From: a virus
IMG/VR virus record: IMGVR_UViG_3300050014_000073
Coordinates: 1-64,000 of that record
DNA length: 64,000 bases
Direction: 5' to 3' (one strand)
Made by a program: the position numbers and the translations under genes. The stretch's first letter is position 1. Every line of letters starts with the position of its first letter. The notes below the pieces were generated by a model that made no database searches, was not told the origin of the DNA, and saw nothing but the letters and a program-made list of their open reading frames with translations. Of the stretch, positions 9,971-36,009 are shown piece by piece.

Positions 9971-11695
9971 TTACTCTCCTTCCTTCTTCTTGACATCGTC
10001 AGCCGGGACAAATTCTAGCGGTCCGTTGAAAAGTAATCTGTAGCCAATCTCCGAGGATTCTCCTCCACCCGTCTTGTTCTTGAGGCATTTCATGATTCCA
10101 CGAATACCGATCACTTCGCCCTTATCCATAATCTTGCTCCCCGCAACGCGGTGAACTCGAACTCGAACGTGGCTGTAGAACTTTGGGGCATTGCCTCCCG
10201 GTGTATGAGAAGAGTCACCAAACGATGATTTGGGGCCTTCACGAAGCTGGTTGACAAGAATGATAAGTGCATTATGAACTTGCGCACATCCTACCCAACG
10301 CCGAAGAAGCCTCCCCATGAAAAGAGGAAGGTCCATATTCGTTCGCATGTTGGCATCTTCAAGGCCCGTGAGGGATTCACCTTCAGTAAGGAGTGCTGCG
10401 ATGGAGTCTAAGACAACAACTCGTTTCGTATGCCCTTTTTGTTGCATTGACGCTTCGATCTCACTACAGAGCTCTTGAGCAGTCGAGAGCCGAGGATTCT
10501 TCTCTTGGTGAGTCTTCCCGGTCTTCTTGTCAACGTAACTGAACTGACCAACATAGGGCTGAATCAAAGTCAGTTTGGATACATCGAGACCAGCCGTCGT
10601 AGCTTCAGGACCGCCGCAGGAAATGCATTCGGTAAGAATAGCAGGGTCTTTCACTGTTGGACGGGTTCCAGTTCCATTGCAGTGCGGGCACTTTGCCATC
10701 CCACGGACCCTTGCCCAACCGGGATCGAAACTGTTCTCGACGTCACCGTATACAACATGGGCCCCGTCGTATTGAGCAAGAGCCGCGATTGACATCACGA
10801 GGGCCGACTTTCCCTGTGAGTTATGGACCACGACGCCGTTCGCAACGAAGTTGTCGATCCCTGGAACGGTCATGTCGTAGACGTCTTCGTAGCCGTAGAA
10901 TTCCACCTTCTTGACTTTGCCGGATCTTCCTTCTAAGTTCCGTTTTGTTGCGTGGTACGAGAGGTGATCGAAGCAAGTCTTCCATTCGAGGTTGTCGACG
11001 GAATGATTATGGTCGTTCTCGTCTTTATGATGCCCGTCCCATTCATCTGTCGGACGATCACCATAAATCTCTGAAAGAATGAACCGATGCTCCGAAAAAT
11101 TCTCACCGTTGTTCAAATGAATTACAGAATGCCCGTTCGTCAGCTTCCGAAAGAAGGGCATGATGCGATCTCCCGGCTTCAGATCTGAAAGTTTTCGGTA
11201 TCCTTGTGACTCCCAATCGTAAGCGGAACTGTACTTCGATCGAGAGGTTGAACGTTCACGAAGCATGAACGGATGAGAAGCAGTCGCGATAATGAACTCG
11301 GGTTGCTTTCCATAGATACGAACTGAGTTCTTAGGGACTTGGAAGGTTACTTTGTAGACAGGACGCTTTCCTACTTTCCAGACACAAGACGCCTGTCGAA
11401 GTACGATGCGTCCTAACTTCTGATCAAAGCCATACACCCATGGCTTGGTCCCGACAAGGTTTTTGATGGGGATTCCTTTCGGGAATCTATCAAGGTCTCG
11501 CGGACAGTCGATTAAAGTTTCTCCGGCGAGACACTCCCACCCAGAAACTTCGATCATCCTCCCATACGGGATTCCGCGATCCTTGTGTCCTAGAACAGTA
11601 TTCAGTCCGGGGATTTTCGTGTCAAGCCAGAGCTGAGGCGTCCATTTGAGAGTAAGATGCCCCAGAGCTTGCCGTATCCTGTCTAATTCAGTCAT
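9971..11695 (-). CDS. RecA-like recombinase interrupted by an intein
   Basis: A 574-residue precursor. The host protein (residues 1-54 plus 293-574) is a RecA/UvsX-type strand-exchange ATPase. The P-loop is rebuilt as GWESQGKSA after splicing, Walker B is VVVLDSIAALL, L1/L2-like glycine regions (HTPGGNAPKFYSH) follow, and there is a CPHCNGTG...CISC zinc-ribbon insertion about 35 residues after the P-loop. An intein occupies residues 55-292. The spliced recombinase would pair with the ssDNA-binding protein encoded immediately upstream. A box-1 copy of the two-box element lies before the gene. Confidence 0.92.
   Translation of the reverse strand: MTELDRIRQALGHLTLKWTPQLWLDTKIPGLNTVLGHKDRGIPYGRMIEVSGWECLAGETLIDCPRDLDRFPKGIPIKNLVGTKPWVYGFDQKLGRIVLRQASCVWKVGKRPVYKVTFQVPKNSVRIYGKQPEFIIATASHPFMLRERSTSRSKYSSAYDWESQGYRKLSDLKPGDRIMPFFRKLTNGHSVIHLNNGENFSEHRFILSEIYGDRPTDEWDGHHKDENDHNHSVDNLEWKTCFDHLSYHATKRNLEGRSGKVKKVEFYGYEDVYDMTVPGIDNFVANGVVVHNSQGKSALVMSIAALAQYDGAHVVYGDVENSFDPGWARVRGMAKCPHCNGTGTRPTVKDPAILTECISCGGPEATTAGLDVSKLTLIQPYVGQFSYVDKKTGKTHQEKNPRLSTAQELCSEIEASMQQKGHTKRVVVLDSIAALLTEGESLTGLEDANMRTNMDLPLFMGRLLRRWVGCAQVHNALIILVNQLREGPKSSFGDSSHTPGGNAPKFYSHVRVRVHRVAGSKIMDKGEVIGIRGIMKCLKNKTGGGESSEIGYRLLFNGPLEFVPADDVKKKEGE
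10820..11533 (-). other. HNH-containing intein within the recombinase
   Basis: It begins at Cys55 (CLAGETLID, block A), has block B TASHPFM, and a central HNH endonuclease domain (WDGHHKDENDHN, then NLEW). It ends with block F and G sequence NFVANGVVVHN before the +1 Ser293. The insertion is exactly inside the Walker A motif of the host protein, a classic intein site that makes activity dependent on splicing. At 238 residues it is a small bifunctional intein with an HNH rather than LAGLIDADG homing domain. Confidence 0.92.
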
Positions 11696-13880: not shown

Positions 13881-14138
13881 TCAGTTTGCTCCGTAAACAG
13901 GCTTCCCGTCTTTCATGATCCAGATGGGCGCTCCGTGGACTTCTTTCTCTTCGAACGCAGGCCGGATCTTAACAGGATACTTGGGCTTATATCCTGTCAC
14001 TGTCGCAGGAACGATGAACTTTAGGCAGATATCGTTTGGCTCGGGATCTCTGCTTGAGACATAATGCTGCGTAGGAAGTCCTTTAGCTCTCTGCCTCTCT
14101 CGCCACTGCCGAATACGTTCTTTCCCAGGAGTAGTCAT
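13881..14138 (-). CDS. hypothetical protein, 85 aa
   Basis: Starts MTTPGKERIRQWRERQRAKG, a basic helix often seen at the N-terminus of small phage proteins. The start at 14138 is chosen because its ATG overlaps the TGA of the polymerase fragment (ATGA). Function unknown. Confidence 0.6.
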   Translation of the reverse strand: MTTPGKERIRQWRERQRAKGLPTQHYVSSRDPEPNDICLKFIVPATVTGYKPKYPVKIRPAFEEKEVHGAPIWIMKDGKPVYGAN

Positions 14139-15049
14139 AATGAAACTACCGGCATCAGGTCGTTCCAATCCTTTGCGTCTATCTCTTTCTGCTTCACACG
14201 CCACTTTGTGAGGAACTCATCTAGAGGCTCGCCTTCGTATTCGATCATGCTTCCCATTGTCATTCCGGCTGTTGCTTCAGCTAGGATAGGAACACGAAGC
14301 TTCAACTTGAACTGCGTTTGGGCGTACTCATAAGCACCAACTTCGAACAAATGCATGAGCTGTTGATGCGCTTTAGCAATATCGCCGAGACGGACAATGA
14401 AATACAACGCATCGTGAACTTCCATGATGCAACGCTGGAGCAGATTATAAGTTCGTGGTTTCAGGTCCAGAAGGGCCAACGCAATGAGAAGGAACTGGTG
14501 AGCCGTTCCTTGAACAGGAGTGTTGATTGCTTGATTCCCCCAGTAGGTACTTCGAGTCGAGTCGTTCTCTCGAATCTCGCGCCGGAATCCGAACAGAGTC
14601 TCTACATAGTGGTTCTTCATAGCGAAGTCTCGCTGGCTATCGATGTAAGCAGCTACTCCACGGTACTTCTTGAAGTAATTGCGATGAAGTTGAATCATTC
14701 GGACTTTAGTGATTCCGGTTAGATCTGCGTTGGCGCCGTCTCTAGCACGTATTCGCGAGACAGTTGAAGGATAGATACTCTCCTCACCAAGACCAAACAC
14801 AATTCCGAAGTGGAGCTCTTTGCACATGCGACGAGTTTTCTTGTCTTTGGCTATACGCTCGAAATCCCATCCTGTGAGAGTATGACCAACTTGGCAGTGG
14901 ATGTCCTTCAACTTATTCTTGCGGTCCAGGGCAGCTTCCTGAAGCTGACGGATGAGTAACGGATCACCAGATATCTCTGCCAAAGCTCTTATCTCTATCT
15001 GGCTTCCATCTGCAGCTAACAAACAAAGAAGATCGGAAACATCTTTCAT
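14135..15049 (-). CDS. family A DNA polymerase, C-terminal catalytic part
   Basis: A 304-residue palm and fingers region of a PolA-type polymerase. Motif A is AADGSQIEIRALAEISGDP (metal Asp retained; Gly replaces the usual Tyr), motif B is RRMCKELHFGIVFGLG (the O-helix), and motif C is IMEVHDALYF. It starts at an ATG overlapping the stop of the N-terminal part (ATGA), with GGAGA 8 nt upstream. The polymerase is therefore encoded as two chains, or the genome carries a -1 shift here. Together the two parts make a complete enzyme. Confidence 0.85.
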   Translation of the reverse strand: MKDVSDLLCLLAADGSQIEIRALAEISGDPLLIRQLQEAALDRKNKLKDIHCQVGHTLTGWDFERIAKDKKTRRMCKELHFGIVFGLGEESIYPSTVSRIRARDGANADLTGITKVRMIQLHRNYFKKYRGVAAYIDSQRDFAMKNHYVETLFGFRREIRENDSTRSTYWGNQAINTPVQGTAHQFLLIALALLDLKPRTYNLLQRCIMEVHDALYFIVRLGDIAKAHQQLMHLFEVGAYEYAQTQFKLKLRVPILAEATAGMTMGSMIEYEGEPLDEFLTKWRVKQKEIDAKDWNDLMPVVSL

Positions 15050-16824
15050 AGAGCTTGTCTCCAATCCTCGTCTGCGATAAGAAGGTTTTGCAGCAAAATG
15101 TTTCCGTGGAGGTTCTGGAAATTTGTGATCCCCTCGGCTTCGGCACGGTCACCTTTTCCGCTTCGCAGCCTCCCAGTGATTGCGCCTGTGAGCCACCAAA
15201 TTGTACGGAGTTCCCCGTCATAAAGGCGTGCTCCCGTCTCATAACCTTTCAAGAACGTTGATTTAATCACACCTAAAGACCGGCGTTTTAGCACAATGTC
15301 TAAGGTGTTATTCTGCGTCTCGGCTTGAAGCAGACGGAGAACGTCTTTCTGAGTGGATCGGCCTTCATCTCCTTGCGGTAGCTGTAAGACGTCGTAGATC
15401 AACTTAGCAACCTGCTCTGGTGCGTTGCAATTGAAATTTGGATCCCCTGAAATCTGTTGGAGTTGCCGGTCGAGCTTCTCGATCATCTCCGGAACGATCT
15501 CCATAGCTTTCTTCCAATTGGGCCAGTCTAAACGGGGACCCCGAGTCTCCATTCGGTCTAGAGTTTTCCCGGCATGAATATAGACCTCGACAAGAGGCTG
15601 GCTGACTTGTGAAGAGAACCGTTGTTCTAGACGTTGCGTGATGTCACAGTCCCCAGAGTTCCTAAGAGAGAGACGGTCTATTGGTGCGTCGGCGAAATGT
15701 CCGCTCCATTCATCAACCGTACTCTTATAGTCACAAAATTCCGGGAAGAACCGATATGTTAAGTTCTCAAGGCTGCAACTTCTCAGAAAGCTGTAGCGCA
15801 AATATGTTCCGTATTGAGTATCATACGAGTAGCCTCGCAACGGAACACGAATAGTTTCTATACAGACGTCTGAATCGTACGAGCCATTCTGCAACGACTT
15901 TTTCAAGTCATGGTCAGCTACTAGTTTTGCAACTCGCTTCCGGATCTCTGAGAGATGAGTAGGCTCGTATCCTGATTGCGGATGATCAACTACAACTGAG
16001 AAGCATCGTCCCGTCCATGAACTAAAATCCTTTGGGTTCTGGTAATGACCCGTCCCGAATCCTGCGAGGAGTAACAGACGCTTCCCGTCTACGACATCAT
16101 CTTCAATGTCGAAACTGACTCGTCGATGCTGCCGTTGTTCAGTTCGTAGAATGCGTTCCATCTCATCGAACTCAGCGAGAGTCCTGACCGTTGTGTAGTT
16201 TTGTGCTTTGACGTAACCCCACCTCCCTGGATGGTCTAGGATCGCTCTAACAGCACGGAAGCGGTCACGCCAGGTAAAGTACTCCCATCCTGCTTGGACG
16301 CCTCCCTGCTGGTAGATGTAGCTTGGATGCCAGGACAATACAACGTAGCAGTCCCACGGTGGGAACCAAAATATGGGCTTGTCTTTCTTGAAGTTCTTTC
16401 CGAGAAGCTGATTCCCGGCAACGTCTCCAAGTATGACGTGAACAGCAGCACGTCCCGCGTTGAGGCGCAAGGCTTCGTCATTATACGGACTACAACACTG
16501 AAGTTCACGTTTGGTAGGTTCATGCTCTTCACCATCCGTCCCAAGAGGTTGACAGCGAAGGACATTGTTCACATCGAACTCTTCTCGCGAAAGTCCGGAG
16601 AGCTTCATCGTATCCCAAAGAAAAGTTCCTGTCGGTCCAACAAGTTCTATACGCTTCGCGTTCTCGTGGCCATCTGGCGACTGAGCCCATAGGAACCCCT
16701 TTCGTCCCTTAATTCGTTCGAGTCTCTTGACTTTGTTGACTCCAGGCATCTTGTCGAGAGGGCACTGCGAACATCCAAGGATTCCTTCACGAGATACCGG
16801 CTGCTCGAAGAGATTGAAAGGCAT
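15046..16824 (-). CDS. family A DNA polymerase, N-terminal part with UDG-like and exonuclease domains
   Basis: 592 residues. The first about 200 resemble the uracil-DNA-glycosylase superfamily (CSQCPLDKMPG, then WHPSYIY), as in the polymerase of phage SPO1. Next comes a 3'-5' exonuclease with SFDIEDD and NGSYDSDV, and then the thumb-like region up to ITGRLRSGKGDR. It stops just before motif A. The start at 16824 is chosen because the clamp gene stops 4 nt earlier. The longer in-frame extension upstream would overlap the clamp gene by 230 nt. Confidence 0.85.
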   Translation of the reverse strand: MPFNLFEQPVSREGILGCSQCPLDKMPGVNKVKRLERIKGRKGFLWAQSPDGHENAKRIELVGPTGTFLWDTMKLSGLSREEFDVNNVLRCQPLGTDGEEHEPTKRELQCCSPYNDEALRLNAGRAAVHVILGDVAGNQLLGKNFKKDKPIFWFPPWDCYVVLSWHPSYIYQQGGVQAGWEYFTWRDRFRAVRAILDHPGRWGYVKAQNYTTVRTLAEFDEMERILRTEQRQHRRVSFDIEDDVVDGKRLLLLAGFGTGHYQNPKDFSSWTGRCFSVVVDHPQSGYEPTHLSEIRKRVAKLVADHDLKKSLQNGSYDSDVCIETIRVPLRGYSYDTQYGTYLRYSFLRSCSLENLTYRFFPEFCDYKSTVDEWSGHFADAPIDRLSLRNSGDCDITQRLEQRFSSQVSQPLVEVYIHAGKTLDRMETRGPRLDWPNWKKAMEIVPEMIEKLDRQLQQISGDPNFNCNAPEQVAKLIYDVLQLPQGDEGRSTQKDVLRLLQAETQNNTLDIVLKRRSLGVIKSTFLKGYETGARLYDGELRTIWWLTGAITGRLRSGKGDRAEAEGITNFQNLHGNILLQNLLIADEDWRQAL

Positions 16825-16828
16825 TTCC

Positions 16829-17887
16829 TTACAAATCTGCTGCGAGAATGACGTTGTTCCGCGTTCCGTCCGTACAACGGAACACGCTGGCATTCGAGGT
16901 CTTAGCGAAAGTGACTTCGCATTCATCGTCGATCCCCGTAACGTATTCGAACCATGACGTAATACGGCGAACGGGCCACTTGACAGAAGCTGGCAGCGGA
17001 GTTCCTGTTTTGACAAGATCAATCGAACGTTGGAACTTGCTCGTATTAAGATCAACTGTCACAGTCAGGACGTTTGCCTTGACTTCGATCTCAGCAGCTT
17101 CGTTTTTGTCTACCAGAAATTGACTTGCTACCTGAAGAGCTTTGAGAAGCTCAGATCCTTTGATGACTGCGACGGCTGGGGATTTGACTCTCTCAGCAAG
17201 AGCATCTTTGCACTTGTCGATGGGGTATCCGGCAAGTTTCACGGACAGTGACTGGTAGACGTATCCGTTGGAGAGATCGACGCCGACGCCCGTCTTGTCA
17301 GCGGCAATCTTCCCGTCGTGACCAACGAGGAACTTTGCTACTTCAGCCGGTAGCATGAAATCGTGTTTGACGAGACTTCCAAGACATGCCATCATGAACA
17401 GCGTGTCCGTGACGAGAACTCCGTATCCAGAGCCAAAATAGACAGCCTCGACGTTTTCAGTTCCAGCCATGTTCGGGAGATACTTCACGGCAGTCTTGAG
17501 AGTGGTCTTCTGGTCGTCAGTCAAATCGAACGAGGCAGCGGGCTTCCAGCTTTCATATCCCGTGACGGGAGTGCGTGCGGCGACTTCGAGACGCTGACCG
17601 GACTTCAGCGTGAGCTTGTCTTTCGCGCAGTAAATCTCGATCTCGGTTCCGGTCGCAGTATCTAAGAACGCTTTCAAAGGGCGGCGGTCTAGGAACGACG
17701 TCCAGGCTCCTTTTCCTTCCGTTCCAGCGGCGTGAGCTTCCGCCCAGAGAGCTCCGGTAAGAGCAAGTGATATACTCTTGCCATCTGACTTCAGTCTAAC
17801 GAATTGACTGGAGTCTAGGACGGGACTTGTCTGAACGGAGTCAACGATCTTGAAAGCAGCTTGTAGGTCTTTGGTAGAGATTTTCAT
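16829..17887 (-). CDS. sliding clamp (DnaN-like processivity factor)
   Basis: A 352-residue protein with three repeated alpha/beta segments and the end CTDGTRNNVILAADL, resembling the last strand of bacterial beta clamps. Sequence similarity is distant, but the length, the location directly upstream of the polymerase and the presence of a clamp loader support the call. It starts in an ATGA overlap with the upstream small gene. A clamp would tether the polymerase to DNA. Confidence 0.65.
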   Translation of the reverse strand: MKISTKDLQAAFKIVDSVQTSPVLDSSQFVRLKSDGKSISLALTGALWAEAHAAGTEGKGAWTSFLDRRPLKAFLDTATGTEIEIYCAKDKLTLKSGQRLEVAARTPVTGYESWKPAASFDLTDDQKTTLKTAVKYLPNMAGTENVEAVYFGSGYGVLVTDTLFMMACLGSLVKHDFMLPAEVAKFLVGHDGKIAADKTGVGVDLSNGYVYQSLSVKLAGYPIDKCKDALAERVKSPAVAVIKGSELLKALQVASQFLVDKNEAAEIEVKANVLTVTVDLNTSKFQRSIDLVKTGTPLPASVKWPVRRITSWFEYVTGIDDECEVTFAKTSNASVFRCTDGTRNNVILAADL

Positions 17888-21298: not shown

Positions 21299-21907
21299 CT
21301 ACTGGATGGGCTCTGGCCGCCTGCGCCGCATTAGACTCAATGCCAAAAGTCCCGCCCCGAGCAGAAATAGCGAGGTTGGCTCAGGCGCATTGGAGGATGC
21401 CACGAAAGCCTGGGTGCCACTCCCGGCCACTGGCTCGATATATTCCACCGAGCCGAAATTGAACGTTGGGATCTCGGAGCTTGCCGTCCAGAGGTAGGAA
21501 GCCATACTCGCGGTCGTCGCAAAGGCCCCCTGGTCGAAGACGTTCCACATATCCTGCTGGATGTCGATCTGCGACTGCGGTGTAGGCGTTAGCAGTGTCG
21601 AAAGCACGCCAATCAATTCGTAGCCTTGGAGTGCTCCCCGATCGGCGGAGAACATGCCGGAGGACGCCGCCTCGCCCAGCGTGTCGATATTGGCCATCCA
21701 GCTTTCGCCGGTTGTGATTTCGTTGAATAGGTCGTAGCAGTCGGCGGATATGTCCAGACTTCCGACTGTGAGAAAGTAAGGCAGAACGTAATCGGAGCCG
21801 TTGTTTACCCCGGTTGTCCCGTTGAATGTGACCTGAATCGTTTCCGCATTCAGGCAAATTGTACCCACCAATAAGGCCATGGCGAGCAGTTTAATCGTCG
21901 TTTTCAT
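21299..21907 (-). CDS. secreted PEP-CTERM sorting-domain protein
   Basis: About 202 residues. Sec signal MKTTIKLLAMALLVG with a cleavage site near NAE, a beta-rich middle, and the C-terminal exosortase signal APEPTSLFLLGAGLLALSLM followed by RRRR. PEP-CTERM proteins are exported and processed by a bacterial exosortase, so this is a bacterial-type cargo gene in a replication operon. AGGAGGA precedes this ATG. An in-frame ATG at 22000 with its own AGGAGA could add 31 residues. The gene is bracketed by 18-bp direct repeats and hairpins. Confidence 0.85.
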   Translation of the reverse strand: MKTTIKLLAMALLVGTICLNAETIQVTFNGTTGVNNGSDYVLPYFLTVGSLDISADCYDLFNEITTGESWMANIDTLGEAASSGMFSADRGALQGYELIGVLSTLLTPTPQSQIDIQQDMWNVFDQGAFATTASMASYLWTASSEIPTFNFGSVEYIEPVAGSGTQAFVASSNAPEPTSLFLLGAGLLALSLMRRRRPEPIQ

Positions 21908-21926
21908 GTTGTGTTCATTCCTCCTG

Positions 21927-21950
21927 GGCGGATTACGCACCGCCCCGCGC
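21927..21950. repeat. GC hairpin repeat, copy 2
   Basis: Same 24-nt sequence as 21251-21274 except one base; lies between the two possible starts of the PEP-CTERM gene. Confidence 0.65.
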
Positions 21951-22116
21951 TGTACCTGGTCCACTAGATTCTGCAAGGCGTGATAGGTTTTCTCAAGCAT
22001 CTTCGTCTCCTTTTTGATCCAGTTTCTAATCCCTTAATTTGCTCTCAGTCCGGGATCGACATTATTGGGACTTGCAAGATAGACTGTCATGTGTTTGCTC
22101 AACAGGGTGAGTCTTT

Positions 22117-24799: not shown

Positions 24800-24973
24800 T
24801 GACCGCGACTCCGACCCCGACCGCGACCCCGACCCCGACCGCGGCCTCAACCCCGACTGCGACCACGACCGCGACCCCGACCCCGACCACGACCTCGACC
24901 ACGACCGCGACCCCGACCCCGACCGTGACCTCAACCCCGACTGCGACCACGACCGCGACCCCGACCCCGACCA
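24800..24973. repeat. degenerate hexanucleotide array (GACCNC)n, copy 1
   Basis: About 29 tandem hexamers of the form GACCNC (+ strand), the fifth base varying freely, with an occasional CTCAACC. It ends in a 29-nt unique block (24969-24997) that is identical after the second array. Open frames through it (VG/AV or WS/GS repeats) follow from the period and are not taken as genes. It sits between the helicase and the 24999 gene. Confidence 0.85.
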
Positions 24974-24998: not shown

Positions 24999-25568
24999 TC
25001 ACGCTCTCCTGAAATTCCTTCTGGGATGAAGTTCCCGAAATCGCTGTCGACGAATCTCGTTCTCGAATTGAATCCGTTTCTGAGGTATTGTCTTTAGATA
25101 GTTTTTCAGTTCCCTATCCGGATCGAGATCTTCTTTTCCCGACCAAGCTAGTTTTATACTTGGTAGATTGTAGGACTTCCGGTTCTCACCATTCGGATAT
25201 GTCTTGATGACGGCTTCTTCGAGACGCTGTCGAGCTGAGGCGCTTGCAATGAGAGAAGCCGGAAGCCCAAGGTGGAGTTCCTTATCGTTGTTCGGATCGT
25301 ACTTCCGTCCCTGCTTATAGACAAGAGTCAAGACGTCGAGAATAAACTCAGGCGTAACGCAGTAGCGCATCGACCATACTTTGAGAGTAAGTAGTAGGAG
25401 TTCAGCATTCGGTCCTAGAGGCATCCATACAATGACATCTTCTGAATAAGGTTTCCGGTTGGTTCGCTGTCTACGAGAGTTCTCGACTTGCAATAAAGCT
25501 TTCTCAAGTCGAGACGCCCAGGCAGTGACAGCCTCCCGCAGTGCATGTTTAAGTTCAAGGTCTACCAT
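24999..25568 (-). CDS. hypothetical protein, 189 aa
   Basis: Unrecognised, helical, with a basic C-terminus (RIQFENEIRRQRFRELHPRR). Located just upstream of the replicative helicase, where phages often keep a helicase loader, but no ATPase motif is present and the role is unknown. Overlaps the next gene by 7 nt. Confidence 0.6.
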   Translation of the reverse strand: MVDLELKHALREAVTAWASRLEKALLQVENSRRQRTNRKPYSEDVIVWMPLGPNAELLLLTLKVWSMRYCVTPEFILDVLTLVYKQGRKYDPNNDKELHLGLPASLIASASARQRLEEAVIKTYPNGENRKSYNLPSIKLAWSGKEDLDPDRELKNYLKTIPQKRIQFENEIRRQRFRELHPRRNFRRA

Positions 25569-25804: not shown

Positions 25805-25985
25805 GCGACCCCGACCCCGACCCCGACTCCCGACCGCGACTCCGACCCCGACCGCGACCTCAACCCCGACCACGACCACGACCGCGACCACGACCCCGAC
25901 CGCGACCTCAACCCCGACCACGACCACGACCGCGACCCCGACCACGACCCCGACCACGACCGCGACCCCGACCACGACCCCGACC
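25805..25985. repeat. degenerate hexanucleotide array (GACCNC)n, copy 2
   Basis: About 30 GACCNC hexamers, longer-period structure around CTCAACCCC, and the same 29-nt block (25982-26010) at its right end as copy 1. The two arrays are about 1 kb apart and bracket two genes (24999 and 25562). Confidence 0.85.
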
Positions 25986-28167: not shown

Positions 28168-28371
28168 ATGGAATCCTATGCACTTGTCATATCGGAACAG
28201 TATCGTATCCTAGTTCACGAAGCAGGACTGAAAGAGGGTCGGAGTGGGAAGATTATGTATCCCGGTCCACTTCCTGTAGGAGCAATCCTGAAAGCTGACT
28301 GGGATCAGGGAGTTGAAGAGGGTCTCAAGGTGTTCAAGCAATCCAAGTCTCGCGAGAGGCTAGATTGCTAG
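28168..28371 (+). CDS. small hypothetical protein, 67 aa
   Basis: Unrecognised. Overlaps the following pyrophosphorylase gene by 7 nt and follows the P-loop gene by 10 nt, so it belongs to the same transcript. Confidence 0.55.
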   Translation: MESYALVISEQYRILVHEAGLKEGRSGKIMYPGPLPVGAILKADWDQGVEEGLKVFKQSKSRERLDC

Positions 28372-29162
28372 ACGTCATCACTTTCGGAGAGACGCTCTTA
28401 CAAACACGGGACCTCGATCCAGTATACGTTATGCTGTACCGTTCTCAATTTTCGTTCTTCCAAAAAGAACGCTTTACCGTAGCGTACTGGCTATTCTATC
28501 ATTCAGGAGTTTCTGCACTGCTTTCTGAAAAGATGGGGCATGCGTTCTGGGACGCTTGCCAGGAACAGTTAACTCTTGCTCCAAGGGGAACGGAGAGACG
28601 ACACTTCCGTGGATCTGCTGCAACGAAAGCAGTCCAGGCTCTTCATAGTCTCTATCCAGATCCTGAAGATTTTGTGGAAGCAATGTGTCCATCTCAGAGT
28701 ACATGCGAGACGTTCCACACAGTTTCATCGCGAGTGGAAAAGCTTCCGCAGTTCGGACCTTGGATTGCTTTCAAAGTCTGTGATATGCTAGAACGTGTTC
28801 TAGATCGTCAGATTGATTCCTCAGGATGCATAGATCTTTGGTTTCGAGAGCCTCTTACTGGTGCAGAGAAAGCTGCTACTGCTTTCTCTCTTCCTTCCCG
28901 CGATGCTGCGATTCAGTTCCTTCTTGAGAAGTTTCATAGCTGGGGCGCTCCACCTGACTACAAGCGTAAAGTCAACTTGCAGGAGATCGAAACAATCTTA
29001 TGCAAGTGGAAGGCACATCTTGGAGGCCATTACGAGATTGGGAAGGATACTTACGAGATATTGCATGGACTCCGAAAGTATTCCTCACGCTCTTCTAGTG
29101 CTGCGCACCTGATAGACTGTTTGCAAGAAGGGACTTTGTGCAAGAGGAATACTCTTTGCTGA
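28365..29162 (+). CDS. alpha-glutamyl/putrescinyl-thymine pyrophosphorylase-like (amino acid:DNA transferase)
   Basis: 265 residues, TTG start. Motifs RFTVAYWLFYHSGVSALLS, PRGTERRHFRG and FGPWIAFKVCDMLERVL match the helix-hairpin-helix DNA-glycosylase-derived family that displaces pyrophosphate from 5-(PP-oxymethyl)uracil in DNA and attaches an amino acid or polyamine. A DNA-base kinase that would make the substrate is the next gene and a second member of the superfamily follows. The nucleophile added cannot be told from sequence. Confidence 0.8.
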   Translation: MLDVITFGETLLQTRDLDPVYVMLYRSQFSFFQKERFTVAYWLFYHSGVSALLSEKMGHAFWDACQEQLTLAPRGTERRHFRGSAATKAVQALHSLYPDPEDFVEAMCPSQSTCETFHTVSSRVEKLPQFGPWIAFKVCDMLERVLDRQIDSSGCIDLWFREPLTGAEKAATAFSLPSRDAAIQFLLEKFHSWGAPPDYKRKVNLQEIETILCKWKAHLGGHYEIGKDTYEILHGLRKYSSRSSSAAHLIDCLQEGTLCKRNTLC

Positions 29163-29737
29163 AACCACCTCACGTTCCGGTTATCAACATCCGTGGAGTA
29201 AACGGAAGTGGGAAGAGTTATCTAGTCCGTTCTTGGATGAAACTGCTTGGAGCGAAACCATATCCGCAGCGGTCAAATTTGTTTGGAGGAGAGACTGCAA
29301 CTGGAGCGGAGTACTATTTGCTTTCAGACGATGGAAGGGTGATCGGGGACTACCGTACCAATTGCGGAGGCTGTGACCGCATCCACTCCCAAGATGAAGT
29401 TGCGGACCATATTCGGTTAGGGATTTCCTCTGGTTCACGTTACGTTCTGTTCGAAGGTGTGATTCTCTCAACAGTGTTTGAGTATTGGCATCAGTTCAGC
29501 CAGTCCATCAACGGGATGCTCTGGGTCTATCTTGACACCCCACTGGAAGTTTGTTTGAAGAGGGTTTCCGAGCGAAACAAGAACAAGGCATTCAAAGAGA
29601 ATCTCGTTCGGGACAAGTTCCGGCAGGTTGCTTCCACGCGCCGTCGAGCAGAAGCCGCTGGAGAGAAAGTGTTTGAGATTCATTGGGAGAACGCAGAGAA
29701 AGAGCTAGAAAACCTCATAGCAGGATTAAACATATGA
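29138..29737 (+). CDS. P-loop 5-hydroxymethyluracil DNA kinase-like
   Basis: 199 residues, GTG start. Walker A GVNGSGKSYLVR, a Cys-rich loop (RTNCGGCDRIH), a VLFEGVIL strand as Walker B, and a lid with CLKRVSERNKNKAF. It resembles the P-loop kinases that phosphorylate 5-hydroxymethyluracil in phage DNA to 5-(PP-oxymethyl)uracil. Its overlap with one pyrophosphorylase gene and ATGA coupling to the next supports this. Overlaps the upstream gene by 25 nt. Confidence 0.75.
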   Translation: MQEEYSLLKPPHVPVINIRGVNGSGKSYLVRSWMKLLGAKPYPQRSNLFGGETATGAEYYLLSDDGRVIGDYRTNCGGCDRIHSQDEVADHIRLGISSGSRYVLFEGVILSTVFEYWHQFSQSINGMLWVYLDTPLEVCLKRVSERNKNKAFKENLVRDKFRQVASTRRRAEAAGEKVFEIHWENAEKELENLIAGLNI

Positions 29738-29859
29738 AACTTCCTAAAGTTCGTATGCTCCGGCAGATTCTATATTGGATGGAGGAGCGACAGAGACGAA
29801 TGCGCCTGGCAAACGCCGCCGTATGGGTGTTACGGAAACAGAAGAGGAGACTTATATGA
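29734..29859 (+). CDS. 41-aa paralogue of the next protein's N-terminus
   Basis: MKLPKVRMLRQILYWMEERQ repeats the start of the following protein (MKLPPVRNLKKFLWFMEERQ). It is joined at both ends by ATGA overlaps. It looks like a duplicated and truncated N-terminal helix module; it may be a fragment, or a small partner peptide, since the frame is intact and translationally coupled. Confidence 0.6.
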   Translation: MKLPKVRMLRQILYWMEERQRRMRLANAAVWVLRKQKRRLI

Positions 29860-30773
29860 AGTTGCCTCCGGTAAGGAACTTGAAGAAGTTTTTGTGGTTT
29901 ATGGAGGAGCGCCAAAGGGTTTATTTAAGGCGACAGGCAGGTGAACCTTATCCTTGGACTTCGGATCCCATCTTACGCCGCTTTCGATTTTGCAATGTTT
30001 ATCGAGAGCAGGATCGGGTGACGACTTTTTGGCGAGAACGTTGGGCAAAGAAATACGCTGATCACTCGAACTTATGGTTTGCTGCTTGCTTGTTTCGGCA
30101 CATCAACTGGCCCAATACGCTCGAAGAAATTGGATTCCCCAAAGAGTGGAATCCTCGTAAGGTCCTTCGCATTCTCGAGAAGCGGAAAGCACGGGGAGAT
30201 AAAGTCTACACAAGTGCTTATCTTCTCGGAGGCGGAAACACCAAGCATGAAACCAAAGTCCGCTACACGGTGATGACAGTATTGAATCCTGTGTGGAAGT
30301 GGGTTGAGAAGGCTCTTCCTGGAACGGGTCGTATTGCTCCTTGGTTAACTGACGGAACTGATGACGTTCCCTGTACGTTACGCGAAATGTTCGATTGGCT
30401 CTGCCAGTTCCACGGCTTCGGGAAGTTTCTCTCCTACGAAATCGTCACCGATCTTCGTCATACTCGTTATCTATGCAACGCTCCTGACATAATGACTTGG
30501 GCGAATCTCGGTCCGGGAGCGCAGCGCGGATTGAACCGTCTTTACGAACGGGAGCTGAATCAGTCACATCCCCAGGCTCAGCTTCTCGAAGAGCTTCTGG
30601 CAATTCAAGAGTGGGTGGTTAAGAACCGTGATTCGAGAGTTCTTCCTACGATAGAGCCACGAGATCTCGAACATAGTTTTTGCGAGTGCGACAAACTTCT
30701 TAGAGCCAAGGAGCGCCTTGTGCAAGGACGTATAATCGGTCTAGAAAGATTCAGACATCCAGGCTTGATTTGA
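29856..30773 (+). CDS. alpha-glutamyl/putrescinyl-thymine pyrophosphorylase clade 1-like
   Basis: 305 residues. EPYPWTSDPILRRFRFCNVYRE with EQDRVTTFW is characteristic of clade 1 of this family, followed by FHGFGKFLSYEIVTDLRHT in the helix-hairpin-helix part and a C-terminal DLEHSFCECDKLLR. Predicted to add an amine-bearing group to pyrophosphorylated 5-hydroxymethyluracil in DNA. Start at 29856 is chosen because the 41-aa upstream gene ends there (ATGA) and AGAGGAGA precedes it. Confidence 0.82.
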   Translation: MKLPPVRNLKKFLWFMEERQRVYLRRQAGEPYPWTSDPILRRFRFCNVYREQDRVTTFWRERWAKKYADHSNLWFAACLFRHINWPNTLEEIGFPKEWNPRKVLRILEKRKARGDKVYTSAYLLGGGNTKHETKVRYTVMTVLNPVWKWVEKALPGTGRIAPWLTDGTDDVPCTLREMFDWLCQFHGFGKFLSYEIVTDLRHTRYLCNAPDIMTWANLGPGAQRGLNRLYERELNQSHPQAQLLEELLAIQEWVVKNRDSRVLPTIEPRDLEHSFCECDKLLRAKERLVQGRIIGLERFRHPGLI

Positions 30774-30791
30774 CGAAGGAGAAATCATAAC

Positions 30792-31274
30792 ATGATAAAC
30801 GCAAGTGAGTTTTACGGACCGCGCCGTCTCAAGGCGCGAAACAACAATACGCTGCTCAAGGGCAACATGATCCCGCGACGGTTCAAGTCCATCGTCATTC
30901 GTGTGACGGGAGTTCGTTCAGCTCCTTCTGACTGGGACTGCCGGCTTATTCTGGACTTCGATTTCCATCCCGAAGCTCTCGAAGCTCTTCGAGGATCGGA
31001 AGCAGCTAGTGCTCATTCCTGGGCTGTAAACAAGACTAATGGCCAGCGGCTTCGTTCGTACTTATCAGCTTCTGACGACTTCGAGGAACTGGTCGACTGC
31101 CGTGTCCGTCTCAAGGTCATTCCGCAACGTGACCCGAAGTCGGGCGAGCGTGTTCGTTCGCTGGAAGTGACTTCTCTAGCACGCGAAGGGTCAACTCATT
31201 GGGAAGTGCTGGCCTCCTCCGGTAGAGATTGCGGAAGAAGACGAAACGTATTTTTCGTATCCTCCTGTTTTTGA
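30792..31274 (+). CDS. hypothetical protein of the modification island, 160 aa
   Basis: Unrecognised; AAGGAGAAATCATAAC precedes the ATG. Beta-rich, with a plausible globular body to about residue 130. The last about 30 residues look out of frame. A neighbouring frame gives an acidic tail (PPPVEIAEEDETYFSYPPVF) that fits better and would be reached by losing one G near 31189. The true C-terminus is therefore uncertain. Confidence 0.6.
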   Translation: MINASEFYGPRRLKARNNNTLLKGNMIPRRFKSIVIRVTGVRSAPSDWDCRLILDFDFHPEALEALRGSEAASAHSWAVNKTNGQRLRSYLSASDDFEELVDCRVRLKVIPQRDPKSGERVRSLEVTSLAREGSTHWEVLASSGRDCGRRRNVFFVSSCF

Positions 31275-31296
31275 GGAGGAGAAAACGGAACTGTTT

Positions 31297-32190
31297 TTGA
31301 AGATCTTCATCCCCACTAAAGGACGTCCGGTTCGGATCAGTACTCACAAGTACTTCCCTTCCGCTTACGTTGTTGTACACAACGAGCAGGAAGCGGAGCA
31401 GTATCGCGCGAATGCAACGATCGATCCTAAACGGATTCTCATTAGTGGAGCGAAGACCGATGCGTTCGGCCTAACTCGACAACGTGAATGGGTGTGCCAG
31501 ACGCAAGCAAAGAAGAATGAGTGGATTCTGTTCGCTGACGATAACATCTATTACTTGCTAGCGATGGATAAGGAACACTATGGTTTTCCAGAAGTTCTAC
31601 TGACGGCAGACCATACCAGATTGTCGGAAGAAGAGAAAGCGACGGCTCGCAAGGAAGGTGCGATCTGGCGTCCTCGTTTCAACACGCGAGTCCCGGTAGA
31701 ACGGTTCTTGAGGGAGATCGTTCCGGATACAGTTTCTCATTGTGAGATTATCGGAGCACACCTTGCAGGGTTTTCTCTTACAGATAACATCTTATTTCGG
31801 CGAAAGAAGTTTGTTGACGTCGGATACGTCATAGGCAAGTTGATGCTCTGGCACAACACTGGGCATGTCCCCTTCGACCATACAGTCACGATGGAAGACT
31901 TCTATCACACAGCCGAGAACCTGAAGCGATACGGAGTTTGCGTAGTAAACAACTTCGTTGCGGTCCGCCCGACGAATTGTCACTATCTTCCAGGCGGAAT
32001 GGGAACGTATGACGAGCGAGTTCCGTATCGCAAGCGGGACGTGGAAACTTTGTTAGCACGGTATCCTGGGATGTTGGCAGTGAAGGACAGAGAGGGATTT
32101 GTTCCAGGAACTGACTTGCGTCTTCTCTTGCATTCACGTGAGGATGTTCAACGATGGCAACGAGCGCAGAAGCGCACAAGATTGTTTTAG
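31297..32190 (+). CDS. TAGT-like DNA-base glycosyltransferase
   Basis: 297 residues, TTG start. GT-A type features: IFIPTKGRPVRISTH at the N-terminus, GLTRQREWV, then the metal-binding WILFADDNIYYLLAMD, and later GAHLAGFSL. This resembles the TET-associated glycosyltransferase family, which adds sugars to hydroxymethylpyrimidines in phage DNA. The neighbouring kinase and pyrophosphorylases support a DNA-base role. Could also act on another acceptor. Confidence 0.65.
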   Translation: MKIFIPTKGRPVRISTHKYFPSAYVVVHNEQEAEQYRANATIDPKRILISGAKTDAFGLTRQREWVCQTQAKKNEWILFADDNIYYLLAMDKEHYGFPEVLLTADHTRLSEEEKATARKEGAIWRPRFNTRVPVERFLREIVPDTVSHCEIIGAHLAGFSLTDNILFRRKKFVDVGYVIGKLMLWHNTGHVPFDHTVTMEDFYHTAENLKRYGVCVVNNFVAVRPTNCHYLPGGMGTYDERVPYRKRDVETLLARYPGMLAVKDREGFVPGTDLRLLLHSREDVQRWQRAQKRTRLF

Positions 32191-32199
32191 GAGGATTTG

Positions 32200-33222
32200 A
32201 TGCGAACTGTGGATCTTAGTCGTGGTGAGCAGGTTCGTCTGTTCAACGGTTTGGCAATCGAGATTGCAAGCAAGTGCAATCGAACTTGCTACTTCTGCCC
32301 GAACGGATACAACCAGCGTGAAGATGTCTTCATGCTGGAGGAAACGGTCTCACGTTTGCTGGAAGAGCTCTCACGCTTGAAGTACTCTGGGCGTATCGAG
32401 TGGTACATCTACAACGAACCGACACGTGACGAACGGCTGAAGATGTTCATTCGTTGGGCGCGAGTTCAGGTTCCGCGCGCTTGCCAGATGATCAACACGA
32501 ACGGTGACTATTTCAAGGATAAGTTTGACATCGCTGCATTGTTCTTTGCTGGTCTCAATCAGATGCAGATCAACATCTACAGCGCGCAGGATAACGCAGA
32601 GAATGATAAGACGTTTGAGAACGGCGTTGCGCAAGCGCGAAAGCGTGAAGCGCAGCTACAATCGTGGGTTGATAAGATCTCCCCAACAATGAATATCCAT
32701 TCGGATGCGAGTCTCTACTTGAACTCAGGCCCGCGAAAGCGTATTTGCAAAGTCGTGGCGAAGTATGGCGTCCGTCCCAGTTTCAAGGATAGTGATCTCG
32801 AGGGGCCAAATCACTTCTCGAACCGCAGTGGAAACATTCCTGGTTTCCGCAATGGGCTTACAGAACCACTGAAGAAGATGTGTGTGCGCCCGTTCAGGTT
32901 TCTCAATATAGATTACCAGGGCGATGCCCTTCTTTGTTGTAACGACTACCATGGAGTTGTTAAGATCGGGAACGTGAAGGACCATACGCTGGTGGAATTG
33001 TGGAACTCTTCGGTTCTCAATCGTTATCGTGTCAAGTTGCAAGGTCATGATCGTAATTCAGCACTGTGCGACAAATGCGACTACAACGGGGGACACTATC
33101 AACATCAGGTGGGACACGTTACGACGGGGTCAGCGGAACAGGATGTGGAGTGGGTACAGGAGCCGTTTTATCCGGGCGGACTGGTTCAGATCGCGCCGAA
33201 GACGGATAAGAGGTTGATTTAG
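32200..33222 (+). CDS. radical SAM enzyme with SPASM domain
   Basis: 340 residues. The [4Fe-4S]-SAM motif CNRTCYFC is near residue 27. The TIM-barrel core is followed by a C-terminal SPASM-type Cys cluster (CVRPF, CCNDY, CDKC) for auxiliary iron-sulfur clusters. In phage thymidine hypermodification, radical SAM enzymes rearrange amino acid groups already attached to the base; SPASM members also act on peptides. Start at ATG 32200 with GGAGG just upstream. Next to the glycosyltransferase with a 9-nt gap. Confidence 0.85.
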   Translation: MRTVDLSRGEQVRLFNGLAIEIASKCNRTCYFCPNGYNQREDVFMLEETVSRLLEELSRLKYSGRIEWYIYNEPTRDERLKMFIRWARVQVPRACQMINTNGDYFKDKFDIAALFFAGLNQMQINIYSAQDNAENDKTFENGVAQARKREAQLQSWVDKISPTMNIHSDASLYLNSGPRKRICKVVAKYGVRPSFKDSDLEGPNHFSNRSGNIPGFRNGLTEPLKKMCVRPFRFLNIDYQGDALLCCNDYHGVVKIGNVKDHTLVELWNSSVLNRYRVKLQGHDRNSALCDKCDYNGGHYQHQVGHVTTGSAEQDVEWVQEPFYPGGLVQIAPKTDKRLI

Positions 33223-33228
33223 AGCTAT

Positions 33229-33316
33229 TACGGATTGCTAGGTCGTTTCCGTGGCATCCGGTTTGTGGAAAGTACCGTATAACTAGTCTAGCGACGGTCC
33301 TAGGGTCGCTAAACAC
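33229..33316 (+). promoter_or_regulatory. two-box element upstream of the thymidylate-synthase-like gene
   Basis: A degenerate box 1 (TACGGATTGCTAGG, 33229-33242), then ACCGTATAACTAG, then box B (GACGGTCCTAGGGTCGC, 33291-33316), whose first 23 nt equal the copy before SbcDC. Candidate promoter and operator for 33361-34374. Confidence 0.55.
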
Positions 33317-33360
33317 AAACGTCTTCGACTTCTTTCTGGAAATCGGAAAGGAAAGAAACA

Positions 33361-34374
33361 ATGCAAGTAATACGAGTAAGAAACATCAACCAAGCGTGGG
33401 ATCATGCAAAGATCCTTCTCAATGCCAATCACACAACTCGTCCCAGTCGGGTCGGGGAGGTGATTGAATACCCCGACCCAGTCACGACGGTCTACGAGAA
33501 GCCGTGTGAGCGTGTCCTCTTCAATGAGAAGCGGAATGCTAATTGCTTTTTCAATTTCATGGAAGCAATGCATATGCTTGCGGGCCGAAATGATGTCGCG
33601 TGGCTGGAACGATTCAATTCCAAGATTCGCGATTTCATCGGTAACGTGGAAGTGCAGCATGGTGCATACGGCTACCGCTGGCGAAAGTTCTTCGACATGG
33701 ACGGGGGCGCAGAGGATGACTATGCGGACCAGATTCTCAAGATCATTCGGATGCTGAAGAAGAACCCCGATGAACGCCGCGCTGTTCTTACCATGTGGAG
33801 TCCGTTGGCGGACTTGGAACGACCAGATCTTGCAGACGTGCCGTGCAATTTGATCTGCACGTTCAAGATTCGAGGCGGTGCTCTCGACATGATTGTCTTC
33901 TGTCGTTCAAATGACATTGTGTTTGGCGCGTATTCTGCAAATCAAGTGCACTTCAGCTTTCTGCTGGAGTACATGGCTTCTATGATCGGAGTACCGGTTG
34001 GGCGTTACTTTCAGATCTCGGACTCTTGGCACGCTTACACTTCTCGTTGGTCCGAATTTGGCGGTCTTGATCCCACTCCGACGATTGATCGCTATGCGTT
34101 GGGCATGGTTCCGTTCCCGCTGGTTGATCATCCTGAGACGTGGGACGAAGATCTGAAGCGGTGGATGGAACGAGACTTCACGCAAGAGTTCTCCAATCGG
34201 TTCTTCTCACGAGTTGCTGAGCCGATGTGGCTCTCATGGTCAGAATACAAGCATAACAATCTCGACAACGCAATTAGGGTTATACGGAATTGTGATGCAG
34301 CTGACTGGCGCTGGGCGGGAACAGAGTGGTTGCTCAACATCCAGAGGAAGCGAGCAGAGAAGGGGAAGAAATGA
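33361..34374 (+). CDS. thymidylate synthase family, probable dUMP hydroxymethylase
   Basis: 337 residues. HGAYGYRWRKF, the catalytic Cys in DVPCNLICTF, RSNDIVFGAYSANQVHFSF and FQISDSWHAY are in thymidylate-synthase order. The Asn of SANQ that reads the uracil ring is kept, so dUMP rather than dCMP is the likely substrate. Beside a 5hmU kinase and pyrophosphorylases a dUMP hydroxymethylase is more likely than a plain thymidylate synthase, but the two cannot be separated by sequence alone here. Confidence 0.8.
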   Translation: MQVIRVRNINQAWDHAKILLNANHTTRPSRVGEVIEYPDPVTTVYEKPCERVLFNEKRNANCFFNFMEAMHMLAGRNDVAWLERFNSKIRDFIGNVEVQHGAYGYRWRKFFDMDGGAEDDYADQILKIIRMLKKNPDERRAVLTMWSPLADLERPDLADVPCNLICTFKIRGGALDMIVFCRSNDIVFGAYSANQVHFSFLLEYMASMIGVPVGRYFQISDSWHAYTSRWSEFGGLDPTPTIDRYALGMVPFPLVDHPETWDEDLKRWMERDFTQEFSNRFFSRVAEPMWLSWSEYKHNNLDNAIRVIRNCDAADWRWAGTEWLLNIQRKRAEKGKK

Positions 34375-34562
34375 GACAGGAAGATCCAAAGTCGACTTTA
34401 ATTGAACGATTTCGGGTATGGCGTCTCTTCTGGGTTGCTTGCCGTGTCCCGAGACGGAACGATCTCTATATCAACAAGAACGGCTTGCTTCAACGTTGTA
34501 AGACGACGAACTACTCGCGTCGCGCTCAAAAGCGTACAATTGTGAAAGAGGGATGGAAGTGA
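34371..34562 (+). CDS. small basic protein, 63 aa
   Basis: Unrecognised, Arg/Lys-rich (RVWRLFWVACRVPRRND). Start ATG overlaps the synthase stop (ATGA) and its end overlaps the HD gene by 10 nt, so it is accepted as a coupled gene. Confidence 0.55.
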   Translation: MRQEDPKSTLIERFRVWRLFWVACRVPRRNDLYINKNGLLQRCKTTNYSRRAQKRTIVKEGWK

Positions 34563-35149
34563 AGAATCTTTTTGAAAATCTGATGTGGTTCCGAAGATTT
34601 GGTTCAACGAGACGCTTCCATTCTGAGACGTTCATCGGAACACCAGAGACAGTTCTACACCACTCTGCTAGTACAGCTCTTATCCTGATTCAGGTCTTAG
34701 GAGAAAACGTCTCCGTCAACTTGCTCAAGGCTGCTCTGTGCCACGATCTCGAAGAGGGACTTACAGGCGACGTCCCCGCGCCGGTCAAGTGGGCTATTGG
34801 AAATACGTTCGAAGAGTTGGAGCGTCGGATTCGTGTGTTCCACGATATTCCGTTCCCAGGATTGAACGGCGAGGAACAGCATCAGCTCAAGGCTGCGGAT
34901 TTTCTGGACTGCGCGATGACGTGTCTCATGCAGCGAAAGATGGGGAACTCTCTAATTGATACGGTTTTCGAGAACTTAGTCGAGTATGAAAACCGAAGTC
35001 CGATCTTGGGCTACGTTGAGACAATTCTGTTCCTCTATCTCTGGCGAGAAGTCAAAGCGGAATACAGACAGACGGTTAGCGGAAGCCGATATGGAAGCGT
35101 CGGTCACCCCTTCTGGAGTCAAGATGCCAAAAGTGAGAAGCAAAGCTGA
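34553..35149 (+). CDS. HD-domain deoxynucleotidase (YfbR/DatZ-like)
   Basis: 198 residues. RRFHS, ETVLHHSAS, ALCHDLEEGLTGDVPAPVK and KAADFLD supply the H...HD...D metal site of HD phosphohydrolases. This fold includes YfbR 5'-deoxynucleotidases and phage DatZ, which removes dATP in 2-aminoadenine phages. Here it could clear a competing normal nucleotide (dTMP/dTTP or dATP). A PurA/PurZ relic lies 600 nt downstream, which makes the DatZ reading worth testing. Confidence 0.75.
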   Translation: MEVKNLFENLMWFRRFGSTRRFHSETFIGTPETVLHHSASTALILIQVLGENVSVNLLKAALCHDLEEGLTGDVPAPVKWAIGNTFEELERRIRVFHDIPFPGLNGEEQHQLKAADFLDCAMTCLMQRKMGNSLIDTVFENLVEYENRSPILGYVETILFLYLWREVKAEYRQTVSGSRYGSVGHPFWSQDAKSEKQS

Positions 35150-35741
35150 GTTCTTCCGGCTGTCACAGGAAATGGTCTTCGGGAATCGTCTTCAGCAATT
35201 CGGGTGGAAACTCTTCGATGAAATGTTTCAAGACTGCCGGAACGCAAGATGTATTGGTCGCGAACCTTGGTACGATAGCGAACTTCCTCCTATGCCTGAA
35301 AAGGTCAGTGTTAGGAACGTACTTGCAGGTGGCGATGAACGGGTTCAACGGTATCGTCTCGGACCAGCTTTCGCTCATGCTCATTGTGTCTCGTTGATCA
35401 AGACCCACATCGTCACTCCTGAACAGCTCATACTTGATGAGAGTGCTCCAGATCATCTAGTCACGTTGCAAGCAGAAGTCCGGAATAGCGAAAGGTTTAT
35501 TGACATGCGATTCGCGCTGCATTCTGGAGTAGGGATGCGACCTGCTTATGCCGCAATGAAGCCCGTGAGTGGGATTCGGGCCGTGACAATCCTGAAAGAG
35601 TACCTGGACGCACCGTCTTGGGACAACCTCTGTGAAATTCTTCATGTATATAGCGAAAGTGTCGTAGAGCTGAGTTCGTACTCAGTTCCAGTAGGAGTTC
35701 TGGGTCTCTCGACAATTATTTGGGAAGTGAGGAATTATTGA
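35124..35741 (+). CDS. hypothetical protein, 205 aa
   Basis: Unrecognised. Starts MPKVRSKAEFFRLSQ, helical, with the repeated pattern FGNRLQQFGW. The ATG at 35124 is chosen for the GGAG 6 nt upstream. It overlaps the HD gene by 26 nt and ends just before the PurA/PurZ relic. Position suggests a part in base modification; no motif proves it. Confidence 0.6.
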   Translation: MPKVRSKAEFFRLSQEMVFGNRLQQFGWKLFDEMFQDCRNARCIGREPWYDSELPPMPEKVSVRNVLAGGDERVQRYRLGPAFAHAHCVSLIKTHIVTPEQLILDESAPDHLVTLQAEVRNSERFIDMRFALHSGVGMRPAYAAMKPVSGIRAVTILKEYLDAPSWDNLCEILHVYSESVVELSSYSVPVGVLGLSTIIWEVRNY

Positions 35742-35742
35742 T

Positions 35743-35978
35743 ATGAGAGTTCTTGTTGTTGTTGGTGGCCAGCCTGGATCTGAAGCTAAAGGAAAGGCAT
35801 GCGTATTTGTCTGGATTACCTAGACGCAAAGGACAGAAACGTTCGTAGGAGCGTCGATTTGGGTAAGAGATCTCACAAGTTCCTTCACGAGTTGGAGACC
35901 CGTACGGAACTGAGAGTAGGTCTTGCATTCACAGGTCCGCATCAAGACGATCTCGTTTATTGGGATTCTGTTTTGTGA
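35743..35978 (+). pseudogene. relic of adenylosuccinate synthetase (PurA/PurZ)
   Basis: ATG 35743 encodes MRVLVVVGGQPGSEAKGKA, the N-terminal P-loop of PurA/PurZ (GGQxGSExKGK), then stops after 26 codons. In another frame ICLDYLDAKDR, then KFLHELETRTELRV and TGPHQDDLVYWD resemble the C-terminal end of the same family. About 260 internal residues are missing. PurZ makes the precursor of 2-aminoadenine DNA. The gene is clearly dead or reduced to a 59-codon open frame (ATG 35799). Confidence 0.7.
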
Positions 35979-36009
35979 TGTCAATCTCCTTTTGCCAAAA
36001 ACCATTCGC

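Follow-up and report, generated by a model that had tools for sequence, protein, structure and literature searches.

A hybrid 5-hydroxymethyluracil island, in which an amino-acid branch and a sugar branch of thymidine hypermodification lie together and most likely make two marks on different thymidine positions, is the reading that we favour for a 64,000-nucleotide stretch of viral DNA, and we consider it about evenly poised between right and wrong. This stretch (hereafter the window) comprises positions 1 to 64,000 of IMG/VR virus record IMGVR_UViG_3300050014_000073, whose full length is 83,140 bases. The island spans positions 28365–35149, and all the genes originally proposed for it are present there on the + strand, although the proposed list omitted the open reading frame (ORF) 30792–31274 between HEL and TAGT. 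The original prediction of an M6-type thymidine hypermodification island based on 5-hydroxymethyldeoxyuridine (5-hmdU), with a glycosyltransferase and a radical SAM enzyme as unusual additions, was supported. The genes of the island and its immediate surroundings are as follows:

28365..29162, +, amino acid:DNA transferase (ADDT); M6 gp51 orthologue, 37%; TTG start
29138..29737, +, 5-hmdU DNA kinase, P-loop domain; M6 gp54 orthologue, 40%; GTG start; overlaps ADDT
29735..29855, +, short ORF like the HEL N-terminus; direct translation MKLPKVRMLRQILYWMEERQR
29856..30773, +, HEL, helical subunit of 5-hmdU DNA kinase; M6 gp55 orthologue, 40%; formerly aGPT-Pplase
30792..31274, +, U160, a 160-aa protein with no family match; weak homologue at the equivalent place in contig L149
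31297..32190, +, divergent TET-associated glycosyltransferase (TAGT) with a mid-protein insertion; PF20691; TTG start
32200..33222, +, BtrN-like twitch radical SAM enzyme; BtrN 4m7s/4m7t, 4.9e-26
33361..34374, +, dUMP hydroxymethylase, a thymidylate synthase (TS) homologue; M6 gp58 orthologue, 43%
34553..35149, +, HD-domain 5'-deoxynucleotidase, YfbR-like; M6 gp59 orthologue, 32%; PF12917, 4.6e-9
34986..35741, +, U251, backbone gene past the island; kept in sister phages (44% in L068, 28% in L149)

Enzymes of the two predicted branches

Seven of the eight island genes were assigned to the expected families (E 4e-9 to 8e-93, Pfam and PHROG), and these matches are far above chance level. ADDT belongs to PF18724 (2.1e-16, above the cut-off) and phrog_6364 (2.5e-66). 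It retains all the columns that are invariant across 18 aligned sequences, including DLDP, ERRH, FGxW and QExETxLCKWK. Two of its relatives have solved structures, namely the PaMx 5-phosphomethyl-dU glycinyltransferase (PUGT, 8z2m), which the ADDT profile matches at 8.3e-115, and another ADDT (25qc); the window enzyme is of the same family as the PaMx protein, but the amino acid that it uses may differ. The predicted P-loop kinase was also recovered (HMUDK_HMUD1, PF18748, 1.9e-14, above the cut-off), with its RGxxGSGKS motif retained.

The profile comparison thus placed the kinase, ADDT and TAGT in the expected families, whereas the second of the two predicted transferases proved to be HEL, the helical subunit of the kinase, which elsewhere partners TAGT without a kinase. 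HMUDK_hel (PF18723, 1.9e-51, above the cut-off) is the sole family matching ORF 29856–30773, and HEL was rejected as a second amino-acid transferase since the ADDT profile did not match it; the HEL and ADDT profiles share a faint likeness (P 0.0024, probability 12%). The AlphaFold model of HEL (pLDDT 92.6) gave no significant match in a fold search of the PDB. Its weak matches were MagIII, OGG1 and the ADDT structure 8z2m, and this likeness, most plausibly to DNA glycosylases and ADDT, is suggestive of a base-flipping role and of nothing further. The likely start of HEL is the ATG at 29856, not 29775. Directly upstream, the short ORF 29735–29855 encodes a protein that resembles the HEL N-terminus and is possibly a partial 5' duplication of the gene; a DNA repeat search of this segment detected no direct repeat of at least 20 nt.

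The TS homologue (PF00303, 3.8e-21; phrog_5131 thymidylate synthase, 7.9e-93) retains C162, R182, D185, N194, H224 and Y226. N194, equivalent to Asn177, is the uracil-reading Asn that had been predicted, and Asn occupies this column in 198 of the 199 relatives having a residue there. The HD nucleotidase was likewise confirmed (PF12917).

As regards the sugar branch, the TAGT-type assignment stands on a PF20691 match of 37.2 bits (3.8e-9; cut-off 27.5) and on phrog_842, beta-glucosyl-HMC-alpha-glucosyltransferase (9.3e-9). A profile built from 102 other TAGTs, with the window protein left out, covered both of its halves (67.8 bits, E 1.3e-18), and the four invariant residues D81, D82, D201 and W287 are retained, the three Asp being candidates for the acidic metal-binding motif of a GT-A fold. 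The search for a TET/JBP oxygenase in the window's own record found none, a search that gave no match in control genomes either. The Shine-Dalgarno sequence (AGGAGG) of the downstream radical SAM gene overlaps the TAGT stop codon.

The radical SAM enzyme matches SPASM (PF13186, 4.4e-12) and, below the cut-off, Radical_SAM (4.1e-5). Its sole significant structural match is BtrN (4m7s/4m7t, 4.9e-26; 1e-29 by profile). It carries CxxxCxxC (C27, C31, C34) followed by C229, C247, C248, C291 and C294, with no Cys after C294. Two-cluster SPASM enzymes have seven C-terminal auxiliary-cluster Cys; since the window enzyme has only five, its SPASM-like domain is twitch-like, with one auxiliary cluster, as in BtrN. 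The radical SAM/SPASM assignment originally made is therefore retained as to family, with the enzyme being of the BtrN kind. C229, C247, C291 and C294 align with the four auxiliary-cluster Cys of BtrN, a butirosin radical SAM dehydrogenase, so that both the radical SAM motif and these four residues are shared; in contrast, the window enzyme is about 70 residues longer, and its proposed substrate is a sugar on DNA and not a free aminocyclitol. The reaction of BtrN is the oxidation of an aminocyclitol at a ring alcohol.

Partners of HEL across viral contigs

The contigs that we searched are fragments, each scan was limited to its best 80 loci, and the counts are stratified by query; the co-occurrence figures given below are consequently sampling-dependent. 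When the window TAGT and the window radical SAM enzyme were used as single-protein queries, no other locus was detected in the viral contigs, and alignments were needed instead. The TAGT search among named phages gave no match, and no relative was detected in the genome contigs by means of the radical SAM alignment. We discarded the radical SAM matches from Campylobacter phages and from MT835743; the MT835743 match lies among bacterial genes and not in a modification island.

With the window and M6 counted, ADDT-seeded scans and the other loci yielded 88 distinct ADDT proteins, of which 65 had the kinase, HEL and TS in view. TAGT was present in two of these 65 full ADDT islands (the window and L046/G044), a BtrN-like radical SAM gene in one (the window) and an HD gene in 48. 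The combination is as unusual as had been supposed, and the idea that TAGT commonly co-occurs with ADDT was rejected.

The HEL profile gave a different picture: TAGT was found in 59 of the best 80 loci, mostly in the arrangement HEL-TAGT-TS-PolA without kinase or ADDT, and the TS of ADDT-free TAGT islands retains the uracil-type Asn. Among the best 80 loci of the radical SAM profile, TAGT was present in 38, HEL in 35, TS in 34, the kinase in two and ADDT in none. Where a radical SAM locus had a strong TAGT, the two genes were always on the same strand (30/30) and in 18/30 cases lay within 4 nt or overlapped. TET/JBP oxygenases, another route to hydroxymethyl pyrimidines, were detected in 9 of the 45 radical SAM contigs in which HEL was not in view.

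Altogether, 162 distinct HEL islands were distinguished: (i) 75 with kinase/ADDT only, (ii) 48 with TAGT only, (iii) 22 with TAGT and radical SAM, (iv) five with radical SAM and no TAGT (one of them with a kinase), (v) one with TAGT and kinase/ADDT (G044), (vi) one with all three (the window) and (vii) ten with none. Grouped by branch, 76 have kinase/ADDT without TAGT, 70 have TAGT without kinase/ADDT in view, and two have both. The subset obtained by the HEL scan alone (n=70) comprised 49 TAGT islands, 11 kinase/ADDT islands, 10 with neither and none with both (Fisher P 1.6e-7). Such rarity (2/162) is as expected if the kinase and TAGT use one hydroxyl.

On the HEL tree, whose bootstrap support is not fully settled, the kinase label requires 18 changes, of which at least 13 are forced, and the TAGT-plus-radical-SAM label requires 15, of which at least 11 are forced, which indicates that HEL changed partner many times. 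The window HEL clusters there with L149 and L067, both of the kinase/ADDT kind, and with L068. Read most simply, this means that HEL presents 5-hmdU to any transferase with which it is paired, and that the kinase and TAGT are normally rivals for a single hydroxyl. The recurrence of the TAGT/BtrN-like pair beside HEL and a uracil-type TS, without kinase or ADDT, argues for the sugar, and not the amino acid, as the probable substrate of the radical SAM enzyme, a proposal based on guilt by association and on BtrN chemistry.

Proposed pathway and its alternatives

The backbone of the window pathway is, as judged from its genes, the known one, in which 5-hmdU in DNA first receives a phosphate, for which an amino acid is then substituted, because M6 orthologues are present and ADDT relatives have been structurally solved. 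The M6 cluster comprises gp51 (ADDT), gp52 (a pyridoxal phosphate (PLP) enzyme), gp53 (radical SAM), gp54 (kinase), gp55 (HEL), gp58 (TS) and gp59 (HD). The window has orthologues of five of these, at the identities listed above, while BLASTP detected no match to gp52, gp53 or gp56 in the 83-kb record; gp52 and gp53 occur together in 20 of the 65 full ADDT islands. In place of gp52/gp53, the window has TAGT and the BtrN-like enzyme between HEL and TS. M6 DNA contains 5-NedU (5-aminoethyl-dU) (PMC6449724).

M6 orthology suggests that the TS homologue would make 5-hmdUMP and the HD enzyme would trim competing deoxynucleotides. The polymerase would then incorporate 5-hmdU instead of T. HEL, to judge from its repeated partner swapping, would offer its partner enzymes the 5-hmdU base within the DNA. 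At some positions the kinase, with HEL, would phosphorylate the hydroxymethyl group and ADDT would swap the phosphate for an amino acid, probably glycine, a step proposed because the family chemistry is established for relatives. At others, TAGT would instead glycosylate the hydroxymethyl group, and a two-electron oxidation of a sugar carbinol by the radical SAM enzyme would follow, giving a keto-sugar, as homology and gene pairing suggest. We predict two products, aminoacyl-thymidine and oxidised glycosyl-5hmU, and favour separate marks over one composite. The wider proposal, which we advance tentatively, with the balance slightly against it, is that viral DNA bears keto-sugars made in place by a BtrN-like dehydrogenase on glycosylated 5-hmdU, in a HEL/TAGT/radical SAM/TS pathway that is widespread in uncultured viruses and is joined here with amino-acid hypermodification.

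Besides the sampling dependence of the counts, several observations weigh against this interpretation. The products of the window island are predicted from genes alone. The fold of TAGT was modelled with little confidence (pLDDT 68); the model found no significant match in the PDB, and the best Foldseek match was a CMP-KDO synthetase (E 0.013). The closest relatives of the window TAGT are those of L296 (43%) and L132 (39%), the remainder, including L304, being at 27–28%. Their contexts are atypical: that of L132 stands second in a TAGT tandem, behind a normal TAGT; that of L304 adjoins a TET/JBP gene; and L296 (9001–11085) encodes a single 694-aa fusion protein, in which a window-type TAGT is joined to a PA0069-like radical SAM domain. 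Because the window TAGT is divergent and has relatives in such settings, its acceptor may be other than bare 5-hmdU. The search for a TET/JBP oxygenase in the window's own record found none, a search that gave no match in control genomes either. The radical SAM enzyme, in turn, is only about 25–29% identical to its viral relatives, and its residues 111–208 are not aligned with BtrN.

The best-surviving alternative, at perhaps half the weight of the favoured reading, is a composite mark, in which TAGT would glycosylate the aminoacyl-thymidine made by the kinase and ADDT (or a tailored form of it) and the radical SAM enzyme would then oxidise the product. The two branches do share an operon both in the window and in G044 (L046/L063), whose TAGT occupies the position of the window cassette and has four-base overlaps with both HEL and TS, and the window TAGT subfamily, which co-occurs with a first TAGT or is fused to a radical SAM domain, hints at a non-standard acceptor. 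However, the TAGT/radical SAM pair is found in 22 distinct islands without kinase/ADDT in view, which shows that an aminoacyl acceptor is not needed by these enzymes, and glycine on thymidine presents just amine and carboxylate groups. The glycosylated aminoacyl thymidine of the original prediction is possible, but is not favoured over two separate marks. The context ties the radical SAM enzyme to the sugar branch.

It is rather improbable that the radical SAM enzyme replaces M6 gp53 by rearranging or oxidising the amino-acid side chain, with TAGT making an independent sugar mark. The corresponding M6 operon encodes a radical SAM enzyme of its own, gp53, which is missing from the window together with gp52, and in the short contigs L275 and L295, which have no TAGT match, a BtrN-like gene abuts a kinase gene. 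Nevertheless, gp53 matches PA0069-like models and the window enzyme matches BtrN, i.e. they are of different radical SAM families; a BtrN-like enzyme occurs in 0/64 other full ADDT islands, yet dozens of islands without ADDT have one coupled to TAGT; and there is no gp52-like PLP enzyme to finish the M6 route. Least credible, and quite unlikely, is that one branch is dead or acts elsewhere, e.g. on virion or host glycans: the combination is rare, and extra glycosyltransferase-like ORFs occur as a run among the late genes, i.e. those for the virion (record ~68.9–75.0 kb, L062:4888–11035), but the catalytic motifs are intact in every case examined in both branches, there are no stops, gene order is operonic, and third-position GC does not single out the cassette as a recent arrival.

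Related phages, other features and implications

L149 shares with the window, in order, ADDT (44%), kinase (50%), HEL (51%), a U160-like ORF, TS (57.5%) and TerL (64%). Nothing lies between its U160-like ORF and TS, and neither TAGT nor radical SAM is present there, which is why we regard the pair as a cassette. L068 shares replication genes, HEL (52%), TS (54%), HD and U251 with the window; the ORF that replaces its kinase and ADDT looks by eye like a GT-B glycosyltransferase (no Pfam match). Two further islands have duplicated genes: L067 (3136–5006) carries two 5-hmdU kinase genes within one ADDT island, with an FAD-oxidoreductase-like ORF upstream, and in L125 (8913–13170) TAGT and the BtrN-like radical SAM gene each occur twice, next to a gene that by eye looks like a PIG-L deacetylase (no Pfam match).

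U160 has no match in Pfam, PHROG or NCBIfam, and is 26% identical to L149:3769–4239 (pairwise E 1e-5). An open +1 frame (30792–31330) would give it an acidic tail reaching into TAGT; it may continue through this frame by fusion, a frameshift or a sequencing error.

Elsewhere in the window, GACCCC-like hexanucleotide arrays at 24801–24972 (28.7 copies) and 25806–25985 (29.8 copies), ~1 kb apart, flank ORF 24999–25568, and related ORFs with MRWNKLHKW traverse both. On the − strand, 9971–11695 encodes a RecA-like ATPase with an apparent intein at the Walker A motif (CLAGETL...VVHNSQGKS), and 14135–17055 a family A DNA polymerase in two ORFs meeting at 15046–15064 and matching consecutive parts of phrog_17, which may reflect a frameshift, a true split or a sequencing error. 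A predicted secreted protein (21299–22000, −) ends in a PEP-CTERM-like signal (APEPTSLFLLGAGLLALSLMRRRR), which is odd for a phage and may hint at an exosortase-bearing host. Two short frames at 35743–35980 resemble by eye the ends of adenylosuccinate synthetase (GGQPGSEAKGK...FTGPHQDDLVY); a family search for the suspected PurZ-like remnant gave no match.

Among known systems, a pelagiphage cluster reported in 2022 has HEL beside TAGT and a uracil-type TS, and a BtrN-like radical SAM enzyme is not mentioned in the available part of that report (PMC9599517). Contigs of this kind fetched in our analysis have no kinase or ADDT, unlike the window. An isolated phage, LuckyBarnes, has the gene order TS-TAGT-TAGT-HEL. 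The T-even TAGT of T6-like phages adds a second glucose to alpha-glucosyl-5hmC (PMC13390438); it shares family PF20691 with the window protein but serves a cytosine pathway, whereas the window has a uracil-type hydroxymethylase. Yersinia phage YerA41 has a ~1 kDa oligosaccharide-like T substitution (PMC9023294), i.e. also a sugar on thymidine in phage DNA, a parallel drawn from its description and not from a genome comparison. Thus, the core pathway is known, while the radical-SAM sugar branch and the hybrid island appear to be new: radical-SAM oxidation of a sugar on DNA has no report in the searchable literature, with an earlier report of the radical SAM pairing being possible in Lee 2018, Lee 2022, Iyer 2013 or Hutinet 2021.

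To judge from the near-exclusion of the two branches and from its partner swapping, HEL may be a general 5-hmdU-presenting module and not just a kinase domain. The islands predict radical-SAM oxidation of a DNA sugar and supply a named gene set for it, and the window phage and G044 are natural cases where both branches meet.

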